From positions 1 to 20,922 of IMG/VR virus record IMGVR_UViG_3300046804_002489: DNA of 20,922 nucleotides; one strand, 5' to 3'. The notes beneath the pieces were generated by a model that saw only the letters and a list, made by a program, of their open reading frames with translations, made no database searches and was not told the origin of the DNA. The stretch's first letter is position 1. Every line of letters starts with the position of its first letter. Below are positions 1 to 15,010 of this stretch, one piece after another. The translations under genes were made by a program, and so were the position numbers. The DNA is from a virus.

Positions 1-215
1 ATATAGATCCTCATCCTGAAGGTCAAACAGGAACTATGTATTGGATTCCTATGCAGGATTATCATTCTGGTCATGTCTTTATTATAAATGATGAACTAAT
101 AAAAGATTATAAAAAAGGTGACGTATTTAAATTTGATAATTTAAATGACTATCATGGTTCTGCTAATATAGGAACAATTCCTAAATTAACATTAATTGTA
201 GTAGACAATGAATAA
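1..215 (+). CDS. C-terminal part of a 2OG-Fe(II)-oxygenase/cupin-like protein (5' end outside window)
   Basis: The frame is open from the window edge and stops at TAA 213-215, giving about 70 C-terminal residues. The tail matches the protein at 3435-3920: both carry an Mxx D-x3-GH segment, then D-x-K-x-GDV-x2-FD, then an H with AN-x-GT shortly after. In the paralog that last histidine (H142) is the expected distal iron ligand of a double-stranded beta-helix Fe(II)/2-oxoglutarate dioxygenase; the proximal HxD here would lie upstream of the window. The stop overlaps the next gene's start by 8 bases (ATGAATAA), so the two are probably translationally coupled. Substrate is unknown. Assignment rests on paralogy and fold-like pattern, so an Fe-free cupin is possible. 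Confidence 0.6.
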   Translation, partial: IDPHPEGQTGTMYWIPMQDYHSGHVFIINDELIKDYKKGDVFKFDNLNDYHGSANIGTIPKLTLIVVDNE

Positions 216-1383
216 AAAAACTTATTGTCCTTATCCGTTTATGGGCGCCAGCTTACAGCCTAATAATACGGTGCTACCTTGTGGACAATACATGAATTCT
301 GCGCCATTCAAGAAAGTTATTCCTTTAACTGAAGTACGTGATAGTGAATACATGAATCAACTTAGACATGGAATGCTCAATGGACAACACGGAGACGGAT
401 GCCAATGCCCAGCAGAAGAAGCTAGTGGTATTATGTCTATGCGACAACATGCCATTGAAAAGTTTGGATATGAAGTATCGGATGATTTAAAGATTGTAGA
501 AATATTCTTTGATAATGTATGTAATTTAAAATGTCGTAGTTGTGGTAGTTCACATAGCCATTTGTGGTATGATGATGAGATGACTATGTTTGGAACTACA
601 CTTGCTGATAAAAAATATTTAAAAAATCATACTTACAAAGAAATAGATATCAGCAAACTAGAATTAGTTGACATCTACGGCGGCGAACCTATGCTTAGTA
701 TCGATGCCGATGAATTTTTAAAAGAGTTAAAAGATAACAATATAATAAAAAATATTGAATTACGTTTAAGTACAAACGGTACAACTCTTCCAAAAGAAAA
801 CATGGAGTATGCTTTACTAAATTGTAATTTTTTAAAAATGCAAATCAGCATAGATGCATATGGCCCGTTAAACAACGTAATGCGTTCTGGATCAAACTTT
901 GATGAGCTAGTTAAAAATTTAGAGTACTATAATAACATACTCGAAACCCGCCCTGCTGGTTCTACTAAAATGATGGTCCATAGTGCTGTAGGCATATACA
1001 ATATAAATGTATTGCACCTGCTAGAAGATTTTTTAAAAGAAAGATTTCCTAACCTTTGGTTTGATACACAAGTAGTTCAATTTCCATTACACCTAAGTGC
1101 AAAGCATTTGCCGCTTGATTATAAAGAACAAGTTAAATCTGTTATAGGCAACAGGTATCCTATGTTAGTTAATTATATGATGCAGGATGGTGAAAATTTG
1201 TTTGGACATTTCATCAACTATCACAATAAATTAAATGAAACTAGACAGGAAGATTTTACAGGACTAAATCCGTTGCTGGAATCCTACATGGAAACATATT
1301 TACAAGTTCCTAACTGGAATACTAGTAAAGAGTATTTTGTTAATTCAATAAACAGTCTTAAGACAAATGCCAACTTGGAATAG
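208..1383 (+). CDS. Radical SAM protein with N-terminal twitch-like cysteine region
   Basis: A 391-residue protein. The radical SAM core has the [4Fe-4S]/SAM motif CNLKCRSC (C105, C109, C112), followed by YGGEP at about 157-161, the usual SAM-contacting GGE motif. Ahead of the core is a cysteine-bearing segment (C7, C25, C65, C67) ending in an SMRQ motif. This order, auxiliary-cluster (twitch/SPASM-like) domain before the core, is typical of the family known as N-terminal-twitch radical SAM proteins. The gene at 5513-6433 has the same layout and SMRQ, so the two are paralogs. The enzyme should generate a 5'-deoxyadenosyl radical to modify a substrate I cannot name. Its start overlaps the preceding oxygenase-like gene. 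Its 3' end overlaps the converging gene at 1358 by 26 bases. Radical SAM assignment is very secure; the reaction is not. Confidence 0.93.
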   Translation: MNKKTYCPYPFMGASLQPNNTVLPCGQYMNSAPFKKVIPLTEVRDSEYMNQLRHGMLNGQHGDGCQCPAEEASGIMSMRQHAIEKFGYEVSDDLKIVEIFFDNVCNLKCRSCGSSHSHLWYDDEMTMFGTTLADKKYLKNHTYKEIDISKLELVDIYGGEPMLSIDADEFLKELKDNNIIKNIELRLSTNGTTLPKENMEYALLNCNFLKMQISIDAYGPLNNVMRSGSNFDELVKNLEYYNNILETRPAGSTKMMVHSAVGIYNINVLHLLEDFLKERFPNLWFDTQVVQFPLHLSAKHLPLDYKEQVKSVIGNRYPMLVNYMMQDGENLFGHFINYHNKLNETRQEDFTGLNPLLESYMETYLQVPNWNTSKEYFVNSINSLKTNANLE

Positions 1384-2500
1384 TATCAAACGGTTTTGCT
1401 CTTAAATTGAAAAATACAGTAGCAGAGGGAATTTTTTCTTTGAGTTTTTGTAACAATTCTTTTTCTTTGTAGTCTCTATATTCTGTACTGTAGAAAAAAA
1501 CAGTTGCTTCGTAATTAAAGATATTTGACAAGTGTACTAGTGTGTCCTCAACCTTATCAAGTTGATCAACTAAATTGTCAATTCCTAATAAATCACATTG
1601 CACAAATTTATAAGTTACACCTTCTATAGCAGGAACTTGTTGCTTCCAATACTCTAACGCTTTTTCATTGTAGTCATAAAATACTACAGTTGATCCAGCT
1701 GTTGCATAGTTAACAAACCATGTTCCACTTGCAGGTGTTACAATTTGTTTATACGGCTTAATTGGAATATCAATTGTCTCTGTATTACTTGTATGTACAA
1801 AAGTAGTTTGACAATAGTTTAATCTGTAATATGCCCAACTTAGTTGTTTGTTAAAGTCGTTGGGACTTTCTGGATAAAAGTGTTTCTTGTTATCACGTAT
1901 ACTTTCATCAAATACTAACACTGGCAGGTCTTTATCAAACGCTTGTTTTAATATATTCCATCCGTGACACTTATGATTATATGTTCTAATTTGATCGCCA
2001 CCGCTAATAGTTTTAGGTGTGTAGTCATCATGCCAAGTTTCTACGCTACGCCAAGGAACATCCTGTACATGTTGTTCGCCTAATTGTTGTTTACCTATTT
2101 CAGGTTGTCCAAGCATATTATAAACTTCTAAATTAACAACATAACATTGATGATGTAATTCGTAGTAGGCATCCTTTCTATCTAATACATGCCCTGCAAT
2201 GAAAAACTTTTTCTTAGTTAAAGTTTCAAGCGCATCAAAGAAAGCATGTCCGTTTAAAAATTCAGTTCCAGTACTTAGTACGACAGCGTATTTGTAACCT
2301 TTGTTGGCAACGTGTCGTAACAATGCATCTTCGTCTAGCCATTGGAAAACAGTATAGCCTTTATTATAAATGTTAACTAAACAACCATCTGCTTGATTTT
2401 TTATCAATTCTCGTATGTGTGGCAAGTACTGTCTTGTATTATCTACAAAACAAAAAGCAATGTCTGTCTTCCAGTTAGGATTAAATTCTAATATATTCAT
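1358..2500 (-). CDS. Two-domain protein, glycosyltransferase-like N-terminus and methyltransferase-like C-terminus
   Basis: 380 residues; last gene of the leftward operon, with an ATGA overlap with the upstream radical SAM gene. I do not recognise a characterised family. Residues about 12-150 alternate hydrophobic strands and helices, with a core strand YAVVLSTGTEFLNG (71-84) placed like the DXD strand of GT-A glycosyltransferases, but without a clear DXD. Residues about 255-306 look like a Rossmann methyltransferase start: a glycine-containing turn, then strand VVFYDYN with an acidic residue at its end (D276), then a helix and a second acidic QCD strand. The C-terminal LSNIFNYE segment resembles motifs I recall from marine phage hypothetical proteins. 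A sugar- or methyl-transfer role would suit the cassette but is inference. The 3' end runs 26 bases into the converging radical SAM gene. Confidence 0.8.
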   Translation of the reverse strand: MNILEFNPNWKTDIAFCFVDNTRQYLPHIRELIKNQADGCLVNIYNKGYTVFQWLDEDALLRHVANKGYKYAVVLSTGTEFLNGHAFFDALETLTKKKFFIAGHVLDRKDAYYELHHQCYVVNLEVYNMLGQPEIGKQQLGEQHVQDVPWRSVETWHDDYTPKTISGGDQIRTYNHKCHGWNILKQAFDKDLPVLVFDESIRDNKKHFYPESPNDFNKQLSWAYYRLNYCQTTFVHTSNTETIDIPIKPYKQIVTPASGTWFVNYATAGSTVVFYDYNEKALEYWKQQVPAIEGVTYKFVQCDLLGIDNLVDQLDKVEDTLVHLSNIFNYEATVFFYSTEYRDYKEKELLQKLKEKIPSATVFFNLRAKPFDTIPSWHLS

Positions 2501-3438
2501 TTCAGTTCTTTAATAGGCAATACTTTATCTGGAGTTTTTATAAAAATTTGTTTATTGTTACTTGGACACATATCGCAAAACTCGCTGGCACGATAAATGT
2601 TACTGGCAAAGGAAGATATATCTTCTTCTGTAGCAGTTTCTAAATCTACAGGCTTATATGCAAGATATTTTTGCCAATCTGGATCATCTAAAGAATTGTG
2701 TACTGTTAAGAATTTTTCTAGTGTTCCTAATGCTGCACATTTATATATTTTTTTATTCTTTAAAAAATTACAAAACGGACTACAACATCCTTCTCGATAT
2801 GACTCTTCTGGATTGCCACTCATAAAAGGTTTAGGGCCAGTTGTAGTCATATAATAATGAGAATGAAACTCGCCTTGATCTCGAACCCACACTTGTATTT
2901 TACCATTGCTGAATACTTGTTCATTACCATTAAAATTTCTCTGTTCTTCTTTAACAGGATTGCCAGTTATGTCTGCAATAAATTGATCTCTGTCGTACGG
3001 AGTCAACTTTAATTTATTTGCAAATTCTACAGCAGAATTGAAAACTTTGTTTGTCAGTGTAGGGTCTTCAAATGATGCAAAATGATTACAGACATACAAC
3101 GATACATTATAAGTTAGCATGAGTTCAGCAAGTTCATCGTTGCGTTTATCTAAAAGCATTCCGTTAGTAGGTATAACTATTCGAGCAACAGTGTCTGTTG
3201 TTCTTATATGCTTGACTACTTCTTTAATTTTATCCAAGTATAATAACGGCTCGCCTCCTAGCATAGAATATGTTTCTATATTAAAATGTTTTTGAGCTAG
3301 CGTTACACCTTCAATAATTTGTTCGATACTATCGTCATAACTTGTATCTTTGATAATGTCGCTTCGAGTGTCGCACTGATAACAAGCAAGATTACACTTA
3401 CTGCCAATCATGATATCAAGGATTTTTATTTGACTCAT
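2497..3438 (-). CDS. Radical SAM enzyme with C-terminal auxiliary cysteine region
   Basis: 313 residues. CNLACYQC (C15, C19, C22) sits only 15 residues from the start, and GGEP follows at 61-64, so the core lies at the N-terminus, unlike the other two radical SAM proteins here. A second cysteine set lies at the C-terminus (C218, C219, C223, C234, C288, C291), which fits a SPASM/twitch domain binding one or two extra Fe-S clusters; such enzymes often modify peptides or proteins (anaerobic sulfatase-maturase and PqqE-like group). No precursor peptide gene is evident nearby. The gene has ATGA overlaps with both neighbours, so it is part of one translationally coupled operon. Substrate unknown; peptide, sugar or cofactor are all open. 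Confidence 0.93.
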   Translation of the reverse strand: MSQIKILDIMIGSKCNLACYQCDTRSDIIKDTSYDDSIEQIIEGVTLAQKHFNIETYSMLGGEPLLYLDKIKEVVKHIRTTDTVARIVIPTNGMLLDKRNDELAELMLTYNVSLYVCNHFASFEDPTLTNKVFNSAVEFANKLKLTPYDRDQFIADITGNPVKEEQRNFNGNEQVFSNGKIQVWVRDQGEFHSHYYMTTTGPKPFMSGNPEESYREGCCSPFCNFLKNKKIYKCAALGTLEKFLTVHNSLDDPDWQKYLAYKPVDLETATEEDISSFASNIYRASEFCDMCPSNNKQIFIKTPDKVLPIKELK

Positions 3439-3920
3439 TTTAGTGTGCTAACCTGACAACTATAAAAATTGGTTGTACCACAGTTTGCCGCCCAATGTTT
3501 AACTGTACTATCAAAGTACCAAACATCACCTGCTTTCCAATCCGTTAACACTAGGTCATCTAACTGTACTATATGTCCTGGTGCCCAGTCTTCCAACATA
3601 ACAAGATAACGTATGCAATCTTCCACCGGAACATTCTTTTTAGTTTTTAACATATAGAAGTAGTCTTGATGTACAGGAATCATTTCGCGTGGCTCAAGTG
3701 TTAACCAACACACACTACCTTCTTCTACATACAGTTCATCGTAGAACTTTTTCCAACCTTCTGGCAATTGCTCATTAAACGATTGCTTCAGCATGATAGG
3801 AGGTTCTTTATAATTTTCGTGTGGCACAGCGTGAGGAGCAATCGGTGTAGTATGTTCTGCAACATACGTCTTTAGTGCGTCCTTCCAAAACGGAAATATT
3901 TTTTGTCCTTTACCTTTCAT
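3435..3920 (-). CDS. 2OG-Fe(II) oxygenase-like protein
   Basis: 161 residues. A likely iron-binding triad is visible: HxD at H84/D86 in PVHQDYFYM and distal H142 in VKHWAAN, separated by a beta-rich stretch with GDVWYFD (131-137). This pattern is that of small double-stranded beta-helix Fe(II)/2-oxoglutarate hydroxylases. The arginine that usually holds 2-oxoglutarate is not obvious after H142 (the tail is NFYSCQVSTLK), so the cofactor use may differ. The C-terminal half is clearly paralogous to the truncated protein at 1-215. Start ATG overlaps the amidinotransferase stop (ATGA). Placed between an amidinotransferase and a radical SAM enzyme, it may hydroxylate the same pathway intermediate; that is inference. 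Confidence 0.75.
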   Translation of the reverse strand: MKGKGQKIFPFWKDALKTYVAEHTTPIAPHAVPHENYKEPPIMLKQSFNEQLPEGWKKFYDELYVEEGSVCWLTLEPREMIPVHQDYFYMLKTKKNVPVEDCIRYLVMLEDWAPGHIVQLDDLVLTDWKAGDVWYFDSTVKHWAANCGTTNFYSCQVSTLK

Positions 3921-4972
3921 TGAAAGTAGTCCTCTAGTGTACCTTTACGGCGTAAGTCTAGTGTGGCACAATGTAATCCACCACTTAATGTCATAGCATG
4001 CCTAAACTGTACAGGAACACAATCAATACCGTGCTTTTCTAGCACACGCATTAATGGTTCTTGTTTACTGTCACAAATAATAGTATTAGGATTGACGCTG
4101 AGTATATTCATACCAATGTAAGGACTGCAAGGAGCAACACCTCCAGGAACTTTACTGCCCTGTGCTACACAGTCTTCAAAGTAAATCTTATCCCACTTGT
4201 CAAATAGTTTAGGACAGTTGTTAGTATTAACTCGAGTACTGTTAAGCAATACAAGACCTGGGCGCAGTGGAACAATAGTACTATCCATGTGTGCAAAACT
4301 ATAGATATGTTCTGCGGCATGTACACGATATCCTCTGTGTTCTAATACATTACGCAACCATTTAAGTCCCCAGTGATTGCCTGTATTACTAATCTGGAAC
4401 AATATGTCTTTTCCTAGTCGCACACAGTTAGGTGCGTCAAATACAGGTTCTAAATTTGTAAGACTAGGCACACCTTTAATATCTGCAAACTGATAACTAT
4501 CATCCGATAATATTGGCTTAGGAGCAGCAATCCATTCAACCCCATCTTCTATTGCTTCTAGCATTATCTTATGGTATGCACGAGTTTCAAAATATCTAGC
4601 ACGACACGGACTAGGAGTTTCAATCATTAAATTACCTAAAGGCAGTAACAAGTCGCGTGGACACCAAGTGTACCATCCTGTAGTTTTCCATTCTGGTGTG
4701 TTAAACTCTATGCTCGTATCTTGCACTTCCGGTCTGTGTACTATGACACCTAACTTTTTCAATGTATCTGCAAGTCCCTCAGCATCTTCATTTGCTTCAT
4801 CAATTAATGTCTGTGGATACACGCCCTCTAGTGGTTTAATTTGATCCATAGGATAGTTGGTATAGCTCATGCTCATAGTACTAGCATCTACAGTAGGTAC
4901 GCGAGCATTGTCAGCACGACCAACAATAATTTCTTCTAACGGATCCCAATGATTGTGTGTTGATATTTTCAT
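3917..4972 (-). CDS. Amidinotransferase, glycine amidinotransferase (AGAT)/StrB1 family
   Basis: 351 residues, close to the family's usual length. The protein transfers the amidino group of a donor (arginine in known members) to an amine, forming a guanidino compound through a covalent enzyme-amidino intermediate. The catalytic triad is visible: D179 in FDAPN, H228 in FAHMDST, and the nucleophile C335 in SGGLHCATLDLRRKG. The D-to-H distance of 49 residues is that of human AGAT (D254/H303), and the end of the protein follows AGAT closely (HC-x-T-x-D-x-RRKGTL). Known acceptors in the family are glycine and scyllo-inosamine phosphate; the acceptor here is unknown. ATGA overlaps on both sides place it in the leftward operon. 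Family assignment is very secure. An arginine deiminase-like hydrolase is less likely given the AGAT-type C-terminal motif. Confidence 0.95.
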   Translation of the reverse strand: MKISTHNHWDPLEEIIVGRADNARVPTVDASTMSMSYTNYPMDQIKPLEGVYPQTLIDEANEDAEGLADTLKKLGVIVHRPEVQDTSIEFNTPEWKTTGWYTWCPRDLLLPLGNLMIETPSPCRARYFETRAYHKIMLEAIEDGVEWIAAPKPILSDDSYQFADIKGVPSLTNLEPVFDAPNCVRLGKDILFQISNTGNHWGLKWLRNVLEHRGYRVHAAEHIYSFAHMDSTIVPLRPGLVLLNSTRVNTNNCPKLFDKWDKIYFEDCVAQGSKVPGGVAPCSPYIGMNILSVNPNTIICDSKQEPLMRVLEKHGIDCVPVQFRHAMTLSGGLHCATLDLRRKGTLEDYFQ

Positions 4973-5544
4973 ACATGAAACTCTTGTTTGTTAATTCTTA
5001 GTGCAACTAATATCCAATCGTCATCCGATTGATTCGATGCCGAGTGGGTTAAATCTCCGTCAAACATAAAAATTTCATTTTCTTTAAGATGGAATTTTTT
5101 AGTGTCTATAGTTAAAAATGCATCGCTAGGTGCTGTGATACTGATTAGTACATTATACTGTTCCTTGTCTACATGTTCTACAACATCAGAATTAGGACCC
5201 ATAAAGAATATCCCAGCATACGTTAATCCAGGTAAATTTGTTATTAGATTGTTAAAGATATCTAATTCAGAAATTCCACCAATTTTTATTTCTACATTTA
5301 AATGCCCAGAACCGGATTTGTATTCAATATCCTCTATTAAAAATCCAGAATTGCTATTGTGAAATATTTTGTTGTCTTTGCTAATTCTAGAGTACCACCA
5401 GTCATAGGTTCCTTCAGGATCTTTAGTTTGGCGAGTAAGTTTTTCATTTATACTTCGCCAGTCTAAATTCTTCAGATGGTCGACTGCAACTGCCCTTATA
5501 GATTCAAGTGCGTTAAACTGAGGATAGTTTTGATAATCTAACAT
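4969..5544 (-). CDS. Aspartyl/asparaginyl beta-hydroxylase-like 2OG-Fe(II) oxygenase
   Basis: About 191 residues. Iron ligands are visible as HVD (H124/D126) and H167 in LTHSASNQ, with an arginine (R183 in VALRIN) placed to bind 2-oxoglutarate; this is the layout of the aspartyl/asparaginyl beta-hydroxylase family (PF05118-like). I start at the ATG at 5544 instead of the in-frame TTG at 5550; neither has a strong ribosome site, and the start lies inside the end of the upstream radical SAM gene (32-base overlap), suggesting coupled translation. The stop overlaps the amidinotransferase start (ATGA). Together with 8297-8830 and 8883-9617 it makes three hydroxylases of this kind in one cassette. 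Substrate unknown, and free amino acids, peptides or amino sugars are all possible. Confidence 0.85.
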   Translation of the reverse strand: MLDYQNYPQFNALESIRAVAVDHLKNLDWRSINEKLTRQTKDPEGTYDWWYSRISKDNKIFHNSNSGFLIEDIEYKSGSGHLNVEIKIGGISELDIFNNLITNLPGLTYAGIFFMGPNSDVVEHVDKEQYNVLISITAPSDAFLTIDTKKFHLKENEIFMFDGDLTHSASNQSDDDWILVALRINKQEFHV

Positions 5545-6433
5545 GGTCAATTATATATTGTTTATTTGGAATGTCAATTGTTTCAATAGCATCTATGAAT
5601 GCTTGTGTATTAGGTATATTTACTATATCTAATTTTGATGGGTAAGTTAAAATGTTTGTAGTCCAATTTACGTTAATAGTCTTGATAAAATTGGACAGCT
5701 CCTTTAGTCCGTGCCAGTTATTTAAATGTACTACTGTATGTATAACAAGTTCAAACCCTAAACTTTTTATTTGGTCTATAAATTTAAGAATATCGTTCCA
5801 GTTACTTCCACCACGTACTTGTTCGTTTAATTCTTTGTAGCCATCAATGCTTAGAATAAACTTAACGTGTTTACATTCTTTTAGTAATTCTATAGTTGTA
5901 TCATCCAACAAGAAAGTACCGTTAGTATTATATGTTACATCTAAATCTGAACGGTTTGCTATCTTTAATAATTTTACATGTCTTGATGACATTAAAGGTT
6001 CGCCACCAAGAAACAATATTTTGTTAACGCTTACTGGCAATTCTTTAATATCAGTGCTAGTTCTAACTATCACACTACTATTAGATTTCTTTGCCCAACT
6101 ACTGCTAAATTCATCCCAGCAACCATCGCAGGTTAAATTACAAATGTTGTCTAAGCCAACTTCAAGGAATTCTAATTTAACTGTTTCAGTGTCATACGTT
6201 TCATTGAACTCTTGACGCATACTCTTTTTGCCAAGGGATTCTTCGTAATCGCATTTAGCACACCCAGCTACAGGTCCTTCATGATCACGCAATGCCTTAT
6301 ATTCTGCGCTGTTAAGAATATTAACAACATCTCCGTCAAATTTTTGTATAGGAGTTTTAAAACGGCAACAAGGAAAAATGTTGTTGTCGTTACGTATGTT
6401 AGTATGATGCCAAAAGGCCGCGCACTTAGCCAT
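5513..6433 (-). CDS. Radical SAM protein with N-terminal twitch-like cysteine region (paralog)
   Basis: 306 residues. The core motif CNLTCDGC (C98, C102, C105) and GGEP (143-146) identify a radical SAM enzyme. An N-terminal cysteine segment (C4, C22, C23, C58, C61) with CAKC and SMRQ precedes the core, as in the gene at 208-1383; the stretch around the cluster is also similar (LDNICNL against FDNVCNL). It is shorter at the C-terminus than that paralog, by roughly 85 residues overall. The start overlaps the glycosyltransferase-like gene by 8 bases, with GAGGG just upstream of the ATG. The reaction is unknown. Two versions of the same rare domain order in one cassette suggest two related steps on one scaffold, or a duplication followed by divergence. 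Confidence 0.93.
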   Translation of the reverse strand: MAKCAAFWHHTNIRNDNNIFPCCRFKTPIQKFDGDVVNILNSAEYKALRDHEGPVAGCAKCDYEESLGKKSMRQEFNETYDTETVKLEFLEVGLDNICNLTCDGCWDEFSSSWAKKSNSSVIVRTSTDIKELPVSVNKILFLGGEPLMSSRHVKLLKIANRSDLDVTYNTNGTFLLDDTTIELLKECKHVKFILSIDGYKELNEQVRGGSNWNDILKFIDQIKSLGFELVIHTVVHLNNWHGLKELSNFIKTINVNWTTNILTYPSKLDIVNIPNTQAFIDAIETIDIPNKQYIIDHVRLSKLSSV

Positions 6434-7460
6434 ATGCCCTCACTAAATGTCCAAAACCTTTTTGATTAAACCATTTGTCTATTTCTGTTTGATCAATATT
6501 GTACGTATCTTGTATCTTGTTTAAGATATTGATATTTTCTTTTGCTAATTGAAAAAACAACTTGTAGTTATAATCCGTATCTTGCCGAATATTGTCTTCG
6601 TACATTTTAAAATTTTCTAAAAAATATTTTGTATTTTCTACAATAGCATTTAACCTATCATCTTCGTCAGGCAAGTATGCGTAGTCTTTAATAAGCATAT
6701 AATCTTCAAATGTTTTAAATCCTAATTCTTTAATGTAGTCAAACATTTCTGGATTTGATGCATGTAGGAAAGGATGACGTTGTACAAAAACTCTGTAAGT
6801 TTTTTCAGTTAAGTATTTTGATGATATATCATCTTGTTGCACACCCTCTGATACTATACTGAGTACTGTGTTATGGAATATTGTTGGATCAATCCAACCA
6901 GTATTTTTAGTCCACTCATTGGCAGAAGGTGATGTTCCATAATGCTTTGATGTATCATAAATTGTATCAATGCTACGACATAGTTTTAATAATTCATCGT
7001 AGTCGCAAGTATAACTACGACACCAATCTTCTTGTACTTCTGTCCAAGGTTTAAAAAATGTCCACACAGCATGATCAAGAAGACCTACTTTTCTAAATTT
7101 ATTAAGTAAACCAATACGATTTAATCTATCTGGAACTCCTCCTAAAAATAAAAATTTATTAGACGAACTGTTCCACTTGTAAGTATCCTTTTCTTTATAG
7201 CTATTGTAAGTTGTATGTAGATTAAAATTAAAAGGAATAGTTTTTGAATAAGAAGTATTAGTTCCTGCTAATCCTGGAACTATAACCAAGTCGAGTTCTT
7301 TACTAAGTTGCTCAATTAACGTTCCGGGATTATTGTGAATAAACCCGTCGGCTAGCATTAGTCCTAATACATGTTTAGAGTCGCCTATTTCTTGTTTTAA
7401 CAGGTTATATTTTTCTTCTTCTGGAACCCAGAATGTTTCTAAATTAACTATCTTATACAT
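6426..7460 (-). CDS. Glycosyltransferase-like hypothetical protein
   Basis: 344 residues, no characterised family recognised with certainty. The most telling segment is LTEKTYRVFVQRHPF (217-231) followed by an NPEMFDYIKELGFKTFEDY stretch (236-254). It resembles the donor-binding end of fucosyltransferase-like (GT10-type) and many marine phage proteins, where an S/T-EK-x-Y-x-A/F signature precedes a P-F turn. A glycine-rich strand FLFLGGVPDRLNR at 104-116 resembles the start of the second Rossmann domain in a GT-B fold. Overlaps of 8 bases with both neighbours place it firmly in the operon. A role in transferring a sugar would fit the nucleotide-sugar enzymes in the divergent operon, but this is inference from weak motifs. 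Confidence 0.75.
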   Translation of the reverse strand: MYKIVNLETFWVPEEEKYNLLKQEIGDSKHVLGLMLADGFIHNNPGTLIEQLSKELDLVIVPGLAGTNTSYSKTIPFNFNLHTTYNSYKEKDTYKWNSSSNKFLFLGGVPDRLNRIGLLNKFRKVGLLDHAVWTFFKPWTEVQEDWCRSYTCDYDELLKLCRSIDTIYDTSKHYGTSPSANEWTKNTGWIDPTIFHNTVLSIVSEGVQQDDISSKYLTEKTYRVFVQRHPFLHASNPEMFDYIKELGFKTFEDYMLIKDYAYLPDEDDRLNAIVENTKYFLENFKMYEDNIRQDTDYNYKLFFQLAKENINILNKIQDTYNIDQTEIDKWFNQKGFGHLVRAYG

Positions 7461-8310
7461 TAAAGTGTCTGTGCAATCCTAGACGATTTGATTGCCCACC
7501 TCTATTATATTCCGGATACTTATTTTTATAGTCTATACCAAACAATACTGTATTGCTAGGGTCAACTCCTAATGTATTACACAAGTCGATTTGCTTTTGT
7601 TTATACTTGTTTACAATATAGTCTGGAGAATAAATTTCCATTGTTTTTAAACCTAACGCTGCACCAATCCTGTTTGTATATTCAATTTTATGTAACATTA
7701 AAAGAGGGTCATCGTCATCTGTTCTAGTTAATCTCATACCTACCCGGGCATAAGCTAACGGAAAAGTTTTTGATAAACTAAACGTAATATCTGTTATGCA
7801 GTCGTAATTAAAATTAAACTCGATATCTGAGCAAACACCAAAGTATGCACAATCTATTAACACTGGTATTTTTAACTCAGTGCATATTGTCAGCACTTGA
7901 TGCATCTGTAAATGTGTATTACCAGTATCAGAAAATGGCAAACTAATAACAACAGCATCATGTTCGTCGAGTGGCTCGTCTTCGATGAATTTCCAGTTAG
8001 GCCAATTGTTTCTCCACGATATTTGATGGTAAACATATTCTCCTTTAAAACATCTAAATCTACGCTTATTATTTTTCATGTAGAACTTATCAAATGCTTC
8101 TGTAGTTCCATTTGAATAAGCAGCAAAAGGAAAATTTTCTAAACCTATTAACGTATTAAGTTTAGTTGTTTTAATCCAGTCTAGATATTTTTTACAAAAT
8201 GAAGCAGAGTCTACCTGTAATAAGTTAGGTAAACTAGCAAGTACTTCGTCATCAAAGATTGCAAAAGAACCTCCAAATGGTAAAGTTCGTTTGTCATTAG
8301 GCGCTGTCAT
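7453..8310 (-). CDS. PLP-dependent aminotransferase-like enzyme (fold type I, short)
   Basis: About 285 residues. The PLP-lysine motif SLSKTFPLAYARVGMR places the Schiff-base lysine near K181, and VLIDCAYFG supplies the cofactor-pyridine aspartate (D153) and a following tyrosine (Y156), at the usual spacing. An N-terminal YSNGTTEAF element resembles the phosphate-binding SNGxTEA turn. It is shorter than class I/II aminotransferases (about 380-400 residues) and lacks much of the C-terminal small domain, although a late arginine (in SNRLGLHRHF) could be the carboxylate binder. It may act as an aminotransferase, decarboxylase or aldolase. I start at the ATG at 8310 (14-base overlap with the upstream gene); an in-frame TTG at 8331 would add seven residues and has no better ribosome site. 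Confidence 0.85.
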   Translation of the reverse strand: MTAPNDKRTLPFGGSFAIFDDEVLASLPNLLQVDSASFCKKYLDWIKTTKLNTLIGLENFPFAAYSNGTTEAFDKFYMKNNKRRFRCFKGEYVYHQISWRNNWPNWKFIEDEPLDEHDAVVISLPFSDTGNTHLQMHQVLTICTELKIPVLIDCAYFGVCSDIEFNFNYDCITDITFSLSKTFPLAYARVGMRLTRTDDDDPLLMLHKIEYTNRIGAALGLKTMEIYSPDYIVNKYKQKQIDLCNTLGVDPSNTVLFGIDYKNKYPEYNRGGQSNRLGLHRHFNV

Positions 8311-8830
8311 TTTTAAATCGTGTTTTCTCAACTATTAAGTATATTGACACTCTCGTCTCTCGGGTATCGTTCAAGGCACCGTGCGGAACTTGTCCACTGA
8401 ACATTAGTACCTGTCCTTTCTTATTTTTTAATACTTTGTAATCAACTATTGACCAACCACAATCGGTTATTGGTATAACAATGTTGTAATGCTTTCCACT
8501 AAAGTCATATTCAGGTTTAGTGTCATCGTCTACATGTATAGGCATAAAGGAAAGTTTATCTAACAAGTTGATAGTTACTCTATTAATACCTGGCATCTCA
8601 TCGACAAAATTTCTTATGTCTTTTGCTAATTCTGCTAGCTCGTCACTAACTGGCCATGTATCGTCTTGTTCATAAACAATAACACTTTTCCAATTTATAG
8701 AAATTCCTTCATTATGCTCGCCCACATCAATCCAAAATTTAGACAAGTCTTGTTTAACAAATTTCTCCACTAAATCAACAAGAGTGGGAAGTTTATCTTT
8801 GTCTAAATATATGTCAGGGTTTAAAAGCAT
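8297..8830 (-). CDS. Aspartyl/asparaginyl beta-hydroxylase-like 2OG-Fe(II) oxygenase
   Basis: 177 residues; first gene of the leftward operon. Iron ligands HVD (H99/D101) and H150 in VPHGALND, plus R160 after it for 2-oxoglutarate, mark a double-stranded beta-helix Fe(II)/2OG hydroxylase of the aspartyl/asparaginyl beta-hydroxylase type. Start: an ATG also exists at 8842, but only the ATG at 8830 has a good ribosome site (GGAG six bases upstream), and that GGAG lies just inside the longer frame, so I favour 8830. The gene faces the related hydroxylase at 8883 across a short divergent gap. The substrate is not predictable, but pairing with a PLP enzyme immediately downstream suggests an amino-group-bearing substrate. 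Confidence 0.85.
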   Translation of the reverse strand: MLLNPDIYLDKDKLPTLVDLVEKFVKQDLSKFWIDVGEHNEGISINWKSVIVYEQDDTWPVSDELAELAKDIRNFVDEMPGINRVTINLLDKLSFMPIHVDDDTKPEYDFSGKHYNIVIPITDCGWSIVDYKVLKNKKGQVLMFSGQVPHGALNDTRETRVSIYLIVEKTRFKNDSA

Positions 8831-8882
8831 TGGGTTCTCCATATTAGTTACTTATGACAGATAATGACAGCTAAGTAGTATT
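8831..8882. promoter_or_regulatory. Divergent control region with tandem CTGTCAT repeats
   Basis: This short gap separates the two divergent operons of the cassette and must hold or lie near both promoters. On the minus strand it carries two perfect copies of CTGTCAT (8864-8870 and 8854-8860), ten bases apart, that is, one helical turn. The heptamer equals the half-site of the PhoB (Pho) box, whose usual form is CTGTCAT, four bases, CTGTCAT; here the spacer is three bases (TAT), one base short. No strong sigma70 promoter is visible: GATAAT (8860-8865) is a possible rightward -10, and TTATCA/CATTAT a weak leftward pair (8884-8889/8861-8866). Activator-dependent transcription is therefore plausible. 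Pho control is a hypothesis. Confidence 0.45.
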
Positions 8883-9617
8883 ATGATAACACCCTTGGAG
8901 TTTTACGAGAAAAACAAAAATTGTTTTTGGACTAAAGAGTCTATACCATCTCATTTGGTTTCTAATATTGACAAAGCTCGTTGGATTTTAAATGAAGCTA
9001 ATTTTGGTTGGATTGAACTAGACATTGAATTTGACTTGGCAGGTTGGCAATTAGAGGCACAACAAGCTTCGCCTTATTTTGTAGCACATCGTGAAGAACA
9101 AAATACAGGCTGGAATAGTTGTTGCATACACGGTATTGATGTAGACAAAACTGGTGCATGGACCAATTATGGATACACCGATGAAAAGCAAGTCCCTTAT
9201 ACATGGACTGAATTGTCATACAAGGCTCCTACAATAAAACAATTTTGGTCAAGTAAGTTTCCAACAGAGAAATATAGAAGAATTAGATTTATGGAGTTAG
9301 AACCTGAATCTGCTATTACTCCGCACAGCGACATGCCAGGAAGACTTCCAGGAGAAGCAGGTATGGATATGCTAGATTTTGGTGTACCTATTAATATAGC
9401 AGTCGTACATCCAGATGATTGCTATATGGTATTAGAAGGATACGGAGTTGTGCCATTTAAAGAAGGCAAAGCATTTATTGTTAATATACGCAACTATCAT
9501 AGTGTAATAAATTTTAGCAAAAAGTCTAGAATTCATGTCATAGGACATAGTTACGGATACGGAAATAAGTTAGAAGATTTTGCAAATTTGGTTGTAAGAA
9601 GTTATGAAAAAATGTAA
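8883..9617 (+). CDS. Aspartyl/asparaginyl beta-hydroxylase-like 2OG-Fe(II) oxygenase
   Basis: 244 residues; first gene of the rightward operon. The iron ligands are HSD (H148/D150) in ITPHSDMPGR and H206 in NYHSVIN, with R216 (KSRIHVI) placed for 2-oxoglutarate. The GDV/GKAFIVN strand before the distal histidine is typical of the fold. It is longer than its divergent counterpart at 8297, with an extra N-terminal domain of about 110 residues rich in tryptophan. Only a weak ribosome site (AAG) precedes the ATG. The 3' end overlaps the ANL gene by 14 bases. Hydroxylation of the acyl or amino acid unit that the next gene would activate is an attractive but untested idea. Confidence 0.87.
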   Translation: MITPLEFYEKNKNCFWTKESIPSHLVSNIDKARWILNEANFGWIELDIEFDLAGWQLEAQQASPYFVAHREEQNTGWNSCCIHGIDVDKTGAWTNYGYTDEKQVPYTWTELSYKAPTIKQFWSSKFPTEKYRRIRFMELEPESAITPHSDMPGRLPGEAGMDMLDFGVPINIAVVHPDDCYMVLEGYGVVPFKEGKAFIVNIRNYHSVINFSKKSRIHVIGHSYGYGNKLEDFANLVVRSYEKM

Positions 9618-11061
9618 CGCTATAACAAGAGACTTTATCAGCGATAATTTTATATTTGCTGATATACATTCTGCTGGCAAGGAATATGATAAACAGTTTC
9701 TTGTAGAAAGAGTAAACTTTTGGAAATATATACTGAAGTATCATTACAAAGCATCCTATCAGGAATCAATCCTTATTGGTATGCAAAAACTTGGCATAGA
9801 TTATTTTGCTATTATTATTGCATCTGCAGAACTTAGTCTTAAGATTGTTGTAGTAGACTACAATAGGACTGATAAGTTTAGAGATTTAGAATATAATGAT
9901 CCAAAGACTAAGCTATTAGCACCTATTGATATTTTCCTGCACGACTTAACAGACGACATAATTGCATCAAATCCTGCTACAGGAGCCAAGTATGTATTTT
10001 TTACCAAACATTCAAAAAGAACATACAGTACTGTTAATACAATCGATATTGCAATTGATGATCAACTTTATAACAACGTGGTTTCAATACAACCGCAACC
10101 TAGTGATATATTGTTTAGAGTAACTAGTAGCGGCACTACAGATGTTCCTAAAGTAATTGAGCACACACACGAATTCATAAGTGCTATCTCTTTAAGAAAC
10201 TCTAAGTTATATAAAGGTACAGCAGTTCATGTTAATAATTTAAATCATGGTGCCAGTGCATCAGTAACCTTACTTCCTTTATTAGCAAATGATCAAGTAA
10301 CTAAACATTTGTTTTTTGATTGTGCTGATGTTGAAGTAATTGCCGACTTAGTTACAGCACTGGAACCTTACAAAGATACTATTGGATATATGTCTTTTCC
10401 TTATCCATTTTTAATTGACAAGTTTATCGAAGTAAGTAGAGCAAAAAATGTTACTTGGCCTAGATTAGATTTAATTACACTTTCTTATATTTTAGAAAGT
10501 GCCAAACATGCAGTTAGAGATAAAATCTTTAACAGTATAACAAGTATATTTGGATCAAACGAAACACTTGGTCCGCTATTTGTTAATCAATCCAATCAAC
10601 ATATTTGGAATATAGATTCTAGATATTATTACAAGTATGATGATTTTTATAAAATTAGTTTGTCCGACGAAGGACAAATTACAGTAACAATACCAATATA
10701 CAATAAAGATGTTACTACAAATGACTACTTTAAATTAGATGGTGACTCTTACATACATAATGGTAGGTCCGACATGTTTAGGATCAATGGAGAAACTATT
10801 AATTTAAGTACAATTAACGATTTAAATAAACGTAATACTAAAACTTATATAGTAGTTGATACACTGAATCATTGTTTGTATCTTGCCTGTTGGGAAGATC
10901 TTACTATAGAAGAAATACAAACAATAATTAACGATGTAGAAAGTAATTTTAGACAAGTTAAGGTTACAAAAGCATTTCATCTTGAAAAGTCTAATTTTTA
11001 TTATGGTATAAAAATAGACAATGAACTTTTAAGAGAACATTTTAGGACATACAATGTTTGA
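9604..11061 (+). CDS. Adenylate-forming enzyme (ANL superfamily; acyl-CoA synthetase/ligase-like)
   Basis: 485 residues, within the family range. The ANL core motifs are all visible: the phosphate-binding loop TSSGTTDVPK (174-183, A3), the GSNET element (317-321, A5), the ATP-ribose aspartate in NDYFKLDG (D379, A7), GRSDMFRINGE hinge (387-397, A8), and a C-terminal lysine in YGIKID (K470, A10) in the position of the catalytic GK. The enzyme should activate a carboxylate as acyl-AMP and pass it to a thiol or amine. No carrier protein or thioesterase domain is fused. The N-terminal third is poorly conserved, so substrate choice cannot be inferred. It overlaps the preceding hydroxylase (14 bases) and the next small gene (8 bases). 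It is unusual cargo for a phage. Confidence 0.92.
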   Translation: MKKCNAITRDFISDNFIFADIHSAGKEYDKQFLVERVNFWKYILKYHYKASYQESILIGMQKLGIDYFAIIIASAELSLKIVVVDYNRTDKFRDLEYNDPKTKLLAPIDIFLHDLTDDIIASNPATGAKYVFFTKHSKRTYSTVNTIDIAIDDQLYNNVVSIQPQPSDILFRVTSSGTTDVPKVIEHTHEFISAISLRNSKLYKGTAVHVNNLNHGASASVTLLPLLANDQVTKHLFFDCADVEVIADLVTALEPYKDTIGYMSFPYPFLIDKFIEVSRAKNVTWPRLDLITLSYILESAKHAVRDKIFNSITSIFGSNETLGPLFVNQSNQHIWNIDSRYYYKYDDFYKISLSDEGQITVTIPIYNKDVTTNDYFKLDGDSYIHNGRSDMFRINGETINLSTINDLNKRNTKTYIVVDTLNHCLYLACWEDLTIEEIQTIINDVESNFRQVKVTKAFHLEKSNFYYGIKIDNELLREHFRTYNV

Positions 11062-11293
11062 CGAGCATTTAAAAACAAGCAAGGTTACATACCTAGAACA
11101 TTTAAAATGGGCAATAGTTGCAGGCATAAGATTAATCTATGCCGGAGTAACTAGTATTATTCACGGTTTTGTTCCAACTCTGTTTAATGGCTCTGCTCCT
11201 AAACAAGTTATAGATATCTATCACAACCATTTAGAAGATCACCCTAATCCACAATACAAAGAAATGATTAATACCGCTAAGGAACGTAAATGA
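11054..11293 (+). CDS. DUF6356-like small hydrophobic protein
   Basis: 79 residues with a hydrophobic central segment (about 18-43) including SIIHGFVPTLF, and a short charged tail. The pattern of an N-terminal HxxxxxxYxEHL followed by a hydrophobic stretch and an HGxxPxLF end agrees with the DUF6356 family as I remember it; the function is unknown. The central segment could form one membrane helix or an amphipathic helix. It is not an acyl carrier protein, since there is no DSL-type serine. A proper ribosome site (AGGA) precedes the ATG. Overlaps with both neighbours (8 and 4 bases) show that it is co-translated with the ANL and dehydrogenase genes, so it probably serves the same pathway. Confidence 0.75.
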   Translation: MFDEHLKTSKVTYLEHLKWAIVAGIRLIYAGVTSIIHGFVPTLFNGSAPKQVIDIYHNHLEDHPNPQYKEMINTAKERK

Positions 11294-12030
11294 AGTTAGG
11301 AATAGCAGGATACGGAATAGTAGGAAAAGCTACTCACAAAGGATTACTTAAAGATTGTGATGTAGTTATTCACGATACCTTATTCAATACAACCATTGAA
11401 GATTTATATGTATGTAGCTACGTATTTTTTTGTATTCCTACGGATACAGATGCCAGCATACAACTATTAGTTGATGATATAAAACGTCTTAAAGCGGTAA
11501 ATCCAAACTGTACTATTATCATTCGAAGTACAGTTCCAGTAGGAACATGTAGTACTATTGAAAAATTAATTGATGATAAGATTTATTACATGCCTGAATT
11601 TTTACGAGAGCGTGTATGGGACACCGATTGCTTTAATCGTCCAATTATTGTTGGCAGTGATGACCAACCCTTGCCAATTTGTTTGTATGACGAAGACTGT
11701 ATAACTTGCTCTCTTGAAGAAGCAGAAGTTGTTAAAATGTTAAGCAACAACATGGCCGCTGCTCGTGTTGTATTTGCTAACCATATGTATGAACTAAGCA
11801 AACGAGTGGGTGCAGACTATAAAAATGTTTTAGATGCATACTTACAAGTTAATCATGATCAAAACTATTTAGAAGTAAACGAAAACTTGCGAGCATTTGG
11901 CGGCAAGTGTCTGCCTAAGGATTTAGATTTTTTAATTAACACCTTTGCTAGTTTAGGTATTTCGCAAACATATTTTACAGCAATGAAAGAAGACAACGCA
12001 TTATGGCCAGTGACCGTAAGAAAATCTTAA
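11290..12030 (+). CDS. UDP-glucose/GDP-mannose 6-dehydrogenase-like enzyme, short form
   Basis: 246 residues. The N-terminal NAD-binding loop GYGIVG (7-12) and the family signatures STVPVGT, PEFLRE and the catalytic-cysteine motif FGGKCLPKD (C207) are present in order, and a lysine-rich central domain (NNMAAARVVFANHMYE) bridges them. Known members oxidise a nucleotide sugar at C6 in two steps to the uronate. The usual enzyme has about 390-450 residues; here the C-terminal UDP-binding domain is absent, the frame ending about 40 residues after the cysteine. The truncation could mean a changed substrate or a partner subunit. ATGA overlap with the DUF6356-like gene and 28-base overlap with the SDR gene; AAGGA precedes its ATG. 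Likely substrate: a nucleotide sugar. Confidence 0.87.
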   Translation: MKLGIAGYGIVGKATHKGLLKDCDVVIHDTLFNTTIEDLYVCSYVFFCIPTDTDASIQLLVDDIKRLKAVNPNCTIIIRSTVPVGTCSTIEKLIDDKIYYMPEFLRERVWDTDCFNRPIIVGSDDQPLPICLYDEDCITCSLEEAEVVKMLSNNMAAARVVFANHMYELSKRVGADYKNVLDAYLQVNHDQNYLEVNENLRAFGGKCLPKDLDFLINTFASLGISQTYFTAMKEDNALWPVTVRKS

Positions 12031-12893
12031 TCACAGGTGCCAGTGGTTTGATTGGCCGTGAGTTTTGTAAACAACTAAGTCCACATCATGATGTGACGGC
12101 TGTAGATAATAATCAACGATTTATAGGATATCGTCCTGAAGGATGTGTTTATATTAAATCAGATTTAAATGAATACTTAACACAGACAAGTAATAATTTT
12201 GATGTCATATATCATCTGGCGGCCACTAATGGAACAACTAGTTTTTATAGTCACCCTAATGATGTACTGCGTAACAATGTAACACTAGACTTGGGTGTTT
12301 TTAAGTTTGCAGAATCTAATCCAACTTGTAAATTAGTATATGCTAGTAGCAGTGAAGTAGTAGCAGGAACAAGTATATTTCCAACACCAGAAATTAGGGA
12401 TATTAATATCACTAACATTCACAATCCACGATGGAGTTATATGCTACCAAAAGTTCTAGCTGAAAATTATTTGTTTAACAGCCAACTAGATTTTTTAATT
12501 ATACGTTTCTTCAATGTGTTCAGCGAACATACAGGTCCTGGACACTTTGTAAAAGACATTGTTGATAAAATTCAAAATAAAAATTTTGAACTTATTGGTG
12601 CAGATGAAACACGTTCATTTTGCTATGTTAGTGATGCCGTAGATGCTGTGATTAAAATTACCAATGTTTCTAGACAAGTAGTTAATGTTGGCAGTGATGA
12701 GGAATTAAAAATTTTAGATGCCGCAAATATAATTGCCAATGCGCTAGGCGAACAAAATGTAGTTTGGAAAATTAAAAATGGGTTGGAAGGTAGTGCTAAA
12801 AATCGAAAACCCGATATCAGTCAATTGAAAAGGCTGTTGCCAGCCTTTTCTCCTAAACCATTTGCAGAAGTAATGAGTAGTATTAAGCTCTAA
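12003..12893 (+). CDS. NAD-dependent epimerase/dehydratase (extended SDR)
   Basis: 296 residues; last gene of the rightward operon. The NAD-binding GASGLIG (12-18), the HLAA strand (71-74), ASSSEVV (114-120) with catalytic serine and the YxxxK pair (Y146, K150, in YMLPK) are all present, so it should be an active extended short-chain dehydrogenase/reductase acting on a nucleotide sugar (epimerase, 4,6-dehydratase or decarboxylase). Following a UDP-glucose-dehydrogenase-like gene, uronate epimerisation or decarboxylation to a pentose is a reasonable guess. It starts inside the dehydrogenase gene (28-base overlap). Its 3' end contains a stem-loop that seems to serve the opposing gene (12827-12850) and it overlaps the tail-fibre-like gene by 11 bases. 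Confidence 0.93.
   Translation: MASDRKKILITGASGLIGREFCKQLSPHHDVTAVDNNQRFIGYRPEGCVYIKSDLNEYLTQTSNNFDVIYHLAATNGTTSFYSHPNDVLRNNVTLDLGVFKFAESNPTCKLVYASSSEVVAGTSIFPTPEIRDINITNIHNPRWSYMLPKVLAENYLFNSQLDFLIIRFFNVFSEHTGPGHFVKDIVDKIQNKNFELIGADETRSFCYVSDAVDAVIKITNVSRQVVNVGSDEELKILDAANIIANALGEQNVVWKIKNGLEGSAKNRKPDISQLKRLLPAFSPKPFAEVMSSIKL
12827..12850 (-). terminator. Stem-loop terminator embedded in opposing coding sequence
   Basis: A perfect 10-base-pair stem (12827-12836 with 12841-12850) with a 4-base loop. On the minus strand the loop reads GCAA, a GNRA type, and is followed by CCTTTTC. It lies about 33 bases beyond the stop of the tail-fibre-like gene, where a terminator belongs. It could also act on the plus strand, where TTTTCT follows, but there it would cut the SDR message about 43 bases before its stop. 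The short T-run makes it weaker than the other terminators in the window. Confidence 0.55.
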
Positions 12894-15009: not shown

Positions 15010-15010
15010 T

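Follow-up and report, generated by a model that had tools for sequence, protein, structure and literature searches.

The 20,922-nt stretch of viral DNA analysed here (the window) carries, from its left edge to position 12893, a hypervariable cassette that stands about an even chance of making a guanidinylated, hydroxylated unit and linking it to a host-surface or tail-fibre glycan. An amidinated, hydroxylated and possibly sugar-linked product is our best guess. This reading is supported by the co-occurrence of an amidinotransferase (AMDT), a PLP enzyme, a 2-oxoglutarate (2OG) protein and a predicted GT-B glycosyltransferase across relatives, by the kinship of the AMDT to StrB1, by glycosyltransferase folds, UDP-sugar enzymes, an Mtd_N gene at the border, low GC and purifying selection, and by similar chemistry sets in the phages S-SCSM2R and CP220, the latter with radical SAM (rSAM), AMDT and predicted sugar transferase genes.

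ORF analysis places 15 complete genes and one partial gene between positions 3 and 12893, where the sequence-only reading had counted 13 complete and one partial. That reading also had every gene overlapping the next end to start; the cassette genes do all abut, with the sole exception of a 40-bp divergent spacer (8843-8882) between g10 and g11, but the overlaps at g01/g02 and g15/g16 are convergent. Its enzyme list was borne out, with three radical SAM enzymes, 2OG proteins of the Asp/Arg-hydroxylase type, one amidinotransferase, one PLP enzyme, an ANL-like protein, a UDP-sugar dehydrogenase and an SDR, but it omitted a 79-aa DUF6356 protein. The features are as follows.

3..215, + strand: g00, C-terminal part of an Asp/Arg-hydroxylase-type 2OG protein (open-ended ORF cut by the contig edge)
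208..1383, + strand: g01, radical SAM protein 1, N-twitch family, CxxxCxxC as CNLKCRSC (PF04055 43.3 bits; NF033640 N_Twi_rSAM 212.6 against a cut-off of 170)
1358..2500, - strand: g02, 380 aa, predicted GT-A-like glycosyltransferase domain and C-terminal Rossmann/methyltransferase-like domain (AlphaFold2 and Foldseek)
2497..3438, - strand: g03, radical SAM protein 2, CNLACYQC (PF04055 48.4 bits)
3435..3920, - strand: g04, Asp/Arg-hydroxylase-type 2OG protein, HQD...H (PF05118 22.7 against 22.6)
3917..4972, - strand: g05, StrB1-type AMDT (46% identity over 347 aa to StrB1, PDB 1bwd)
4969..5550, - strand: g06, Asp/Arg-hydroxylase-type 2OG protein, HVD...H, TTG start (PF05118 33.6 bits)
5513..6433, - strand: g07, radical SAM protein 3 (rSAM3), N-twitch family (PF04055 59.1 bits; NF033640 175 against 170)
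6426..7460, - strand: g08, 344 aa, predicted GT-B glycosyltransferase (AlphaFold2 and Foldseek)
7453..8331, - strand: g09, PLP enzyme, class I aminotransferase-like (PF00155 17.0 against a cut-off of 19.7 bits)
8297..8842, - strand: g10, 2OG protein, HVD...H (PF05118 22.0 against a cut-off of 22.6)
8843..8882, no strand: divergent spacer, bidirectional T4-late-promoter-like element with facing TACTTAT (8849-8855) and TAAGTA (8872-8877) near both ATGs
8883..9617, + strand: g11, Asp/Arg-hydroxylase-type 2OG protein, HSD...H (PF05118 35.2 bits)
9604..11061, + strand: g12, ANL-like adenylating enzyme with TSSGTTDVPK, GSNETLGP and GRSD motifs (PF00501 17.4 against a cut-off of 29.9 bits)
11054..11293, + strand: g13, DUF6356 protein, 79 aa (PF19883 48.9 bits)
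11290..12030, + strand: g14, two-domain UDP-sugar dehydrogenase, 246 aa, GGKCLPKD present (PF00984 59.5, PF03721 30.0 bits)
12003..12893, + strand: g15, sugar-nucleotide SDR (NAD epimerase/SDR; PF01370 110 bits)
12883..13926, - strand: g16, Mtd_N-type virion/tail-fibre-like protein (PF18454 30.0 against a cut-off of 26.3 bits)
14056..17173, - strand: rIIB and rIIA homologues, T4-like backbone outside the cassette (phrog_609, phrog_612)

Because the partial gene g00 lies at the left edge, the cassette runs on past it. In a near relative (G008) the island is ~30 kb long and holds about nine radical SAM genes, and the window is the right-hand part of such a ~30-kb island. Island GC is lower (0.30-0.39 versus 0.40-0.43), and a g16-type Mtd_N gene flanks the cassette in this contig as well as in many relatives. 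No tRNA was found in the window, and an Rfam search gave no match. The contig groups with aquatic, T4-like jumbo phages that are uncultured and fall in the Rak2/PA5oct/CBB neighbourhood: the window itself holds only rIIA/rIIB, but a gp23-type capsid protein is present on two sibling contigs of >200 kb, in one of which (G001) it matches jumbo phages at 67-72%. Some related contigs have 12-21 radical SAM matches apiece.

Four assignments (ANL, PLP, g10, and the AMDT by Pfam ADI) score under the curated cut-offs and are based on motifs and on family-specific comparison. All three radical SAM proteins (g01, g03, g07) pass the PF04055 cut-off; g03 is not an N-twitch member, scoring 29.6 bits for NF033640, under the cut-off of 170. 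rSAM3 is a frequent partner of AMDT and PLP and adjoins AMDT in distant lineages. Among the five 2OG-hydroxylase-like proteins (g00, g04, g06, g10, g11), those encoded by g04, g06 and g11 exceed the PF05118 cut-off and have the HxD...H motif, g10 is just under, and g00 is truncated, although its 43-54% matches in relatives are to the C-terminal part of 2OG proteins of ~164 aa, one of which exceeds the cut-off. The g04 type is the commonest gene after AMDT, as the immediate downstream neighbour of 53 of 142 AMDT copies, and g11 is found in all 36 of the large clusters with g02.

The AMDT shows full-length similarity to the StrB1/AGAT family with the catalytic Asp, His and Cys kept: profile scores are 393 bits to 1bwd, 291 to HsvA, 278 to AGAT and 273 to SxtG, against 19.6 for Pfam ADI (cut-off 22.8), and residues D179, H228, D230 and C335 are invariant in an alignment of 16 homologues. 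A creatine pathway (a GATM/GAMT reading; cf. PMC11360552) seems less likely, the protein being nearer StrB1 than AGAT. Its nearest relative, StrB1, acts on an aminocyclitol phosphate; the acceptor of the phage enzyme is not readable from sequence, and the family also includes enzymes that use free amino acids or other amines. In the PLP enzyme g09 the SLSK lysine K188 is invariant (alignment of 16), and comparison with relatives suggests that the gene starts at the ATG at 8310.

Two proteins previously called transferase-like match no sequence family, but both have fold-level matches to glycosyltransferases. The g08 model (mean pLDDT 83.4) finds TarM, SenB, VldE, BshA and T4 BGT as top PDB matches in Foldseek (prob ~1, best E 1.8e-3, TM about 0.4), and its matches in a viral structure library include named glycosyltransferases. 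The g02 model (mean pLDDT 89.8) matches LH3 (E 4.9e-5), COLGALT1, LARGE1 and a PBCV-1 glycosyltransferase, and in its C-terminal part METTL6/fibrillarin, at low TM-scores (0.2-0.3) that speak to fold class only. In our reading of the g02 sequence, the usual place of the GT-A DxD metal motif seems to be occupied by STGTE, and the GT-A matches are at TM about 0.3 or less. Both proteins are predicted glycosyltransferases at the level of fold class.

The remaining genes form two separable add-ons, ANL with DUF6356 and UDP-sugar dehydrogenase with SDR, which are gained and lost independently among clusters. The g12 motifs, including the P-loop and GRxD, are largely invariant in 10 homologues; this ANL has no match in cultured phages, and a pattern scan of 84,980 prokaryote genomes found none. 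The DUF6356 gene travels with it, occurring in 9 of 10 large clusters that have the ANL and never without it. The dehydrogenase g14 (best PDB relative 3phl, E 1e-13) retains the first two domains and catalytic Cys motif of the three-domain UDP-glucose/GDP-mannose dehydrogenases, but the C-terminal UDP-binding domain is absent. The closest solved relatives of g15 are UDP-glucuronate decarboxylases (PDB 4lk3/4gll/2b69, E about 1e-23).

That the cassette genes are real follows from their homologues, intact in dozens of contigs, and from dN/dS values of 0.03-0.23 against relatives where dS was measurable (0.03 for AMDT). The possibility that the genes are never syntenic elsewhere was checked by a neighbourhood scan, in which the block was found again in dozens of contig clusters. 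AMDT has PLP, 2OG and GT-B genes within 5 kb in 16 of 16 clusters of a scan anchored on g02 and in 8 of 9 of a scan anchored on AMDT, neither of which was selected on PLP. Of 37 clusters from a scan anchored on PLP, 32 have AMDT nearby; these counts were left out of the probability of PLP given AMDT to avoid circularity. A compact rSAM3-2OG-PLP-AMDT operon recurs in another genomic setting. In L161 and L170 the core lies away from any fibre gene, so the link between island and fibre is not universal. A 107-120-aa T/I/D-rich ORF upstream of rSAM3 (L161/L164/L170) was considered as a RiPP precursor and rejected: other phage proteins in the set are similar to its C-terminal part (YPALEKAYENFKTIY...), and other lineages lack the ORF.

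The island varies while backbone genes stay nearly constant; in one relative (L012) the phosphoesterase is 95% identical, with AMDT at 76%, PLP at 52% and GT-B at 35%. That GT-B is much more variable than AMDT is expected if one unit goes on varying acceptors. Among cassette genes, similarities are only weakly correlated gene by gene (rho 0.04-0.50), so the gene set is mosaic, and co-inheritance of fibre and cassette is weak or absent (rho 0.05-0.39). The idea of a single pathway finds support for the AMDT-PLP-2OG-glycosyltransferase(-rSAM) core, given its recurrence and the compact operon elsewhere, and lacks it for the whole set as one fixed pathway, given the independent add-ons and the mosaicism.

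At the divergent junction, 19 of 41 cluster representatives have TAANTA no more than 18 nt ahead of the ATG of the g11 homologue, against a mean of 3.4 and a maximum of 10 in shuffles. Every one of these 19 also has a facing TANTTA, and TAANTA is near background at internal gene starts. The T4 late promoter TATAAATA has no exact match in the window, and only this variant emerged; generic sigma-70 promoters and terminators were not above shuffles.

We envisage the following steps, in this presumed order, for this laterally diversified, hypervariable island of an uncultured aquatic T4-like jumbo phage. The conserved core (rSAM3, 2OG, PLP enzyme, StrB1-type AMDT and GT-B) would make a small hydroxylated building block, probably a sugar or cyclitol. 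The PLP enzyme would supply or handle an amine, onto which AMDT would move the amidino group of arginine to give a guanidine; oxidation or rearrangement of the carbon skeleton would fall to the 2OG hydroxylases and the N-twitch radical SAM enzymes; and glycosyltransferases would attach the unit or build on it. The dehydrogenase and SDR might supply UDP-sugars, and the ANL and DUF6356 proteins an activated acyl or amino-acyl group. The likeliest target would be a glycan of the phage-host interface, either the infected cell's surface polysaccharide or the phage's own fibre beside the island, with superinfection block or altered recognition as the putative role. Against this reading, no flippase (PF01943) was found in 11 contigs, which would limit the cassette to modifying glycans of the host. 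A bolder version, which we hold tentatively, is that aquatic jumbo phages make a new guanidinylated, hydroxylated sugar or cyclitol by their own pathway and place it on host-surface or virion glycans through variable glycosyltransferases, as a phage-encoded serotype-conversion chemistry.

Alternatively, though rather unlikely, the target is protein of the phage's own tail fibre or virion, with radical SAM and 2OG enzymes altering residues that glycosyltransferases decorate, and no glycan on the host. The adjacent Mtd_N gene, the late-promoter-like element, the resemblance of N-twitch proteins to peptide-modifying rSAM families by profile, the similarity of the g02 fold to collagen hydroxylysine glycosyltransferases, and the eight rSAM genes inside a structural/tail-fibre cluster of Aeromonas jumbo phage 332-Vera (PMC12390700) would all fit. 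However, the core also occurs far from a fibre gene, as noted for L161 and L170, collagen-like repeats were looked for in Mtd_N proteins and none found, and a free-standing StrB1-type AMDT and UDP-sugar enzymes fit small-molecule chemistry better. Such chemistry could instead yield a diffusible guanidino compound, aminoglycoside-like or amino-acid-derived, acting in the infected cell or on competitors; solved AMDT relatives include the natural-product enzymes StrB1, HsvA and SxtG, and the ANL-like enzyme could activate an acid. We consider this improbable, as carrier-protein, transport and export families were not detected in the cassette, the ANL is optional among clusters, and a tethered product agrees better with the glycosyltransferase folds, the UDP-sugar enzymes and the fibre-side location.

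Mosaic inheritance with modular gain and loss might also mean that unlinked auxiliary metabolic genes merely accumulate in a permissive hypervariable region, which is very unlikely in view of the AMDT-PLP-2OG-GT-B association in independent scans, the same-strand overlapping genes and the compact operon in a different genomic place. We give least credence to a modified DNA base against restriction: thymidine hypermodification is known to involve radical SAM and PLP enzymes, T4 beta-glucosyltransferase is among the g08 matches and the left block of G008 encodes a weakly QueC-like protein, but in nine large contigs, which may be incomplete, the TGT/DpdA family is absent and a ThyA-type (thymidylate-synthase-type) enzyme occurs in one (G002 only; absent from the 364-kb and 282-kb contigs), the 2OG proteins are of the Asp/Arg-hydroxylase and not the TET/JBP type, and a fixed genome-wide modification would not be expected to have such hypervariable gene content.

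Phage clusters of radical SAM and amidinotransferase genes have been noted since 2010 without explanation. A core conserved in dozens of aquatic jumbo-phage contig clusters narrows the puzzle to five proteins: PLP, AMDT, one 2OG, one N-twitch radical SAM and one GT-B. Through this core the little-understood N-twitch family would gain a place in a pathway, and the means by which giant phages alter the chemistry of the phage-host interface could come to light.

Gene sets akin to this one have been described in other phages, while this enzyme combination is itself undescribed, as far as searched; the earlier statement that no described phage system has the full set is to that extent upheld, with partial precedents in CP220/CPt10, S-SCSM2R, pelagimyophages and jumbo-phage clusters. 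The AMDT resembles StrB1 (1bwd) at 46% identity with conserved catalytic residues but, unlike it, is phage-borne. The T4-related Campylobacter phages CP220/CPt10 (Firehammervirus) carry a radical SAM/amidinotransferase module, with 11-12 radical SAM genes reported, one amidinotransferase and predicted sugar transferases alongside, which is interchangeable between related phages (PMC2853527); its likeness to the present cassette is at the level of gene families. Their AMDT is only 24-30% identical, however, five neighbours tested by Pfam gave no PLP enzyme or Asp/Arg hydroxylase, and ANL and UDP-sugar genes are not annotated there. Synechococcus phage S-SCSM2R (PQ898602) has a DegT aminotransferase, radical SAM, several glycosyltransferases, a 2OG protein and an AMDT (37%) in one run, but with other aminotransferase and glycosyltransferase families and no ANL, in an AMG-rich region and not beside an annotated fibre gene. 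The host recognition cluster of the T4-like aquatic pelagimyophages is an island of hypervariable content that combines tail-fibre genes and glycosyltransferases with radical SAM cassettes that can be exchanged (PMC7029224). Our island is likewise hypervariable, with fibre, fold-predicted glycosyltransferase and radical SAM genes, but theirs lies between VrlC and gp14, where ours neighbours Mtd_N and then rIIB/rIIA or other genes; no amidinotransferase is mentioned for it, and the present phages are of a different, jumbo lineage. Finally, the polysaccharide-modification clusters of jumbo phages resemble the island in that their glycosyltransferase and sugar-nucleotide genes vary and have been proposed to change the host surface, but the paper on them makes no mention of radical SAM, amidinotransferase or 2-oxoglutarate enzymes (PMC7824862).

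The 20,922-bp window is an entire viral contig record, in which the ORF listing places 15 complete genes and one partial gene at 3-12893, rather than the 13 and one counted in a sequence-only reading. That reading also described the genes as all overlapping, which holds for same-strand neighbours (overlaps of about 4-38 bp) and fails at a single divergent spacer:
8843-8882: divergent spacer of 40 bp, the sole gap within the cassette
8843-8882: facing elements TACTTAT and TAAGTA, just before both ATGs
An Mtd_N-type fibre-like gene lies to the right of the cassette, followed by rIIB, rIIA, an AAA ATPase, a polynucleotide-kinase-like gene, and others. The GC content of the cassette is 0.30-0.39, versus 0.40-0.43 beyond it. 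Where dS is unsaturated, comparison with relatives gives dN/dS of 0.03-0.23, indicating that the cassette genes are under purifying selection.

At the level of a consensus match, the elements in the spacer resemble the T4 late promoter TATAAATA and suggest that the genes on both sides are transcribed late, in a coordinated way. Of 41 cluster representatives, 19 have TAANTA within 18 nt of the start codon of the homologue of g11, the 2OG gene right of the spacer, and all 19 also have a TANTTA facing it (shuffled control: mean 3.4, maximum 10); at internal gene starts TAANTA is near background. The pair resembles a T4-late-type promoter reading in both directions, with little or no leader. It also precedes the divergent ATGs in related loci L030, L032, L033, L038, and L046, and relatives have a similar facing pair at another divergent junction, in their left block.

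Family searches clearly recovered much of the enzyme set first proposed (three radical SAM enzymes, the UDP-sugar dehydrogenase, and an NAD epimerase) and most of the 2OG proteins, but the ANL-like and PLP proteins score under curated family cut-offs. The N-twitch family NF033640 takes in two of the window's radical SAM proteins. The best-defined component is the amidinotransferase (AMDT), which is 46% identical to StrB1 across 347 residues, matches the StrB1 profile ahead of HsvA, AGAT, and SxtG, and has catalytic Asp, His, and Cys residues that are invariant in 16 homologues. The two transferase-like proteins, g02 and g08, have no sequence family; their AlphaFold2 models (mean pLDDT 90 and 83) match a GT-A domain plus a Rossmann/methyltransferase-like domain and GT-B enzymes, respectively, and because TM-scores are low this is evidence at the level of fold class. 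In the UDP-sugar dehydrogenase the catalytic Cys motif is intact and the third domain is missing, and the solved structures nearest the SDR are UDP-glucuronate decarboxylases.

The single pathway first proposed would fail if these genes were never syntenic elsewhere; core members of the set do recur together. Four scans of viral contigs yielded 197 loci in 76 clusters (≥90% over 1.5 kb); to avoid circularity, co-occurrence was taken only from scans without selection on the gene concerned. PLP, 2OG, and GT-B genes were each present within 5 kb of AMDT in 16/16 clusters (g02 scan) and 8/9 (AMDT scan), and AMDT lies near PLP in 32 of 37 PLP-anchored clusters. L161, L170, and relatives carry a compact rSAM3-2OG-PLP-AMDT operon in a different genomic setting. 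Two modules are separable: ANL plus DUF6356, and the UDP-sugar dehydrogenase plus the SDR. Gene-to-gene similarities correlate only weakly across clusters, so the cassette is a mosaic of modules around a near-obligate core. Locus L012 shares backbone genes up to 95% identical with the window; its cassette genes are rearranged, and their identity to those of the window is 35-76%.

Related cassettes occur on contigs up to 364 kb. One of these, G001 (282 kb), encodes a gp23-type capsid protein that shares 67-72% identity with its counterparts in jumbo phages Phosso, Vibrio 2.275.O, PA5oct, GAP32, and CBB, and the window's rIIA matches T4-like phages at about 30-44% identity across roughly half its length; together these indicate that the window derives from an uncultured relative of T4-like jumbo phages. 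The island extends beyond the window, which covers just its right part; in contig G008 it spans about 4.6 to 34 kb and adds SDRs, a methyltransferase, more 2OG proteins, a PP-loop ATPase weakly similar to QueC, and further radical SAM genes, for about nine in all. Radical SAM (PF04055) matches number 12 to 21 per phage contig (G013, G001, G003, and G002, carrying L170, L012, L039, and L018), mostly above the 11-12 reported for CP220/CPt10, and another radical SAM cluster lies at 145-151 kb on G001. Genes whose products, as read from the sequence, look at their N-terminus like MetK (S-adenosylmethionine synthetase) lie near the module at L170:12154-13254 and L190:16665-17792; a putative MetK would supply the radical SAM enzymes.

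Among the collection's cultured phages, tblastn gave no match to the ANL or g08 protein. Synechococcus phage S-SCSM2R (37%) and Campylobacter phages (24-30%) carry relatives of AMDT, which in the cases examined sit beside radical SAM and sugar-transferase genes. Among prokaryote genomes, the ANL scan found no relative and the AMDT scan gave eight loci. At least one of these, L059 (JADHOR010000039.1), is a jumbo-phage fragment with cassette and backbone genes; that it is filed under a Candidatus Puniceispirillum MAG may reflect misbinning or point to a host. The AMDT scan also yielded L060, a PLP-AMDT-2OG-2OG-SDR run on a 3.7 kb Synechococcus lacustris contig, with no phage marker on that short contig.

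The most economical reading is that the cassette is a glycan-tailoring set. The PLP enzyme and AMDT would produce a guanidinylated amine for the 2OG and radical SAM enzymes to oxidize or rearrange, and glycosyltransferases would attach the tailored unit. Conservation is far higher for AMDT than for the GT-B enzyme, a pattern that fits a shared unit placed on varying acceptors. No flippase was detected (PF01943, 11 contigs). The strongest rival is that the cassette modifies virion proteins; DNA modification is unlikely, since among nine large contigs TGT/DpdA was not found and a thymidylate-synthase-type enzyme occurs in just one (L227, G002:143296-144132; 353 bits). A left-block PP-loop protein (L052:14153-14866) has a QueC-like C-terminal Cys motif, a possible link to deazaguanine-type chemistry.

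For the glycan-tailoring set, hypervariability and adjacency to a fibre-like gene fit a role at the phage-host interface, a role already put forward for pelagimyophage (PMC7029224) and jumbo-phage polysaccharide (PMC7824862) clusters. Modules combining radical SAM enzymes with an amidinotransferase (PMC2853527), radical SAM genes in fibre regions (PMC12390700, PMC7029224), and phage surface-polysaccharide clusters (PMC7824862) are already known. The open-access papers searched describe neither the core as defined, nor its breadth across aquatic jumbo phages, nor an enzyme set as full as this one.
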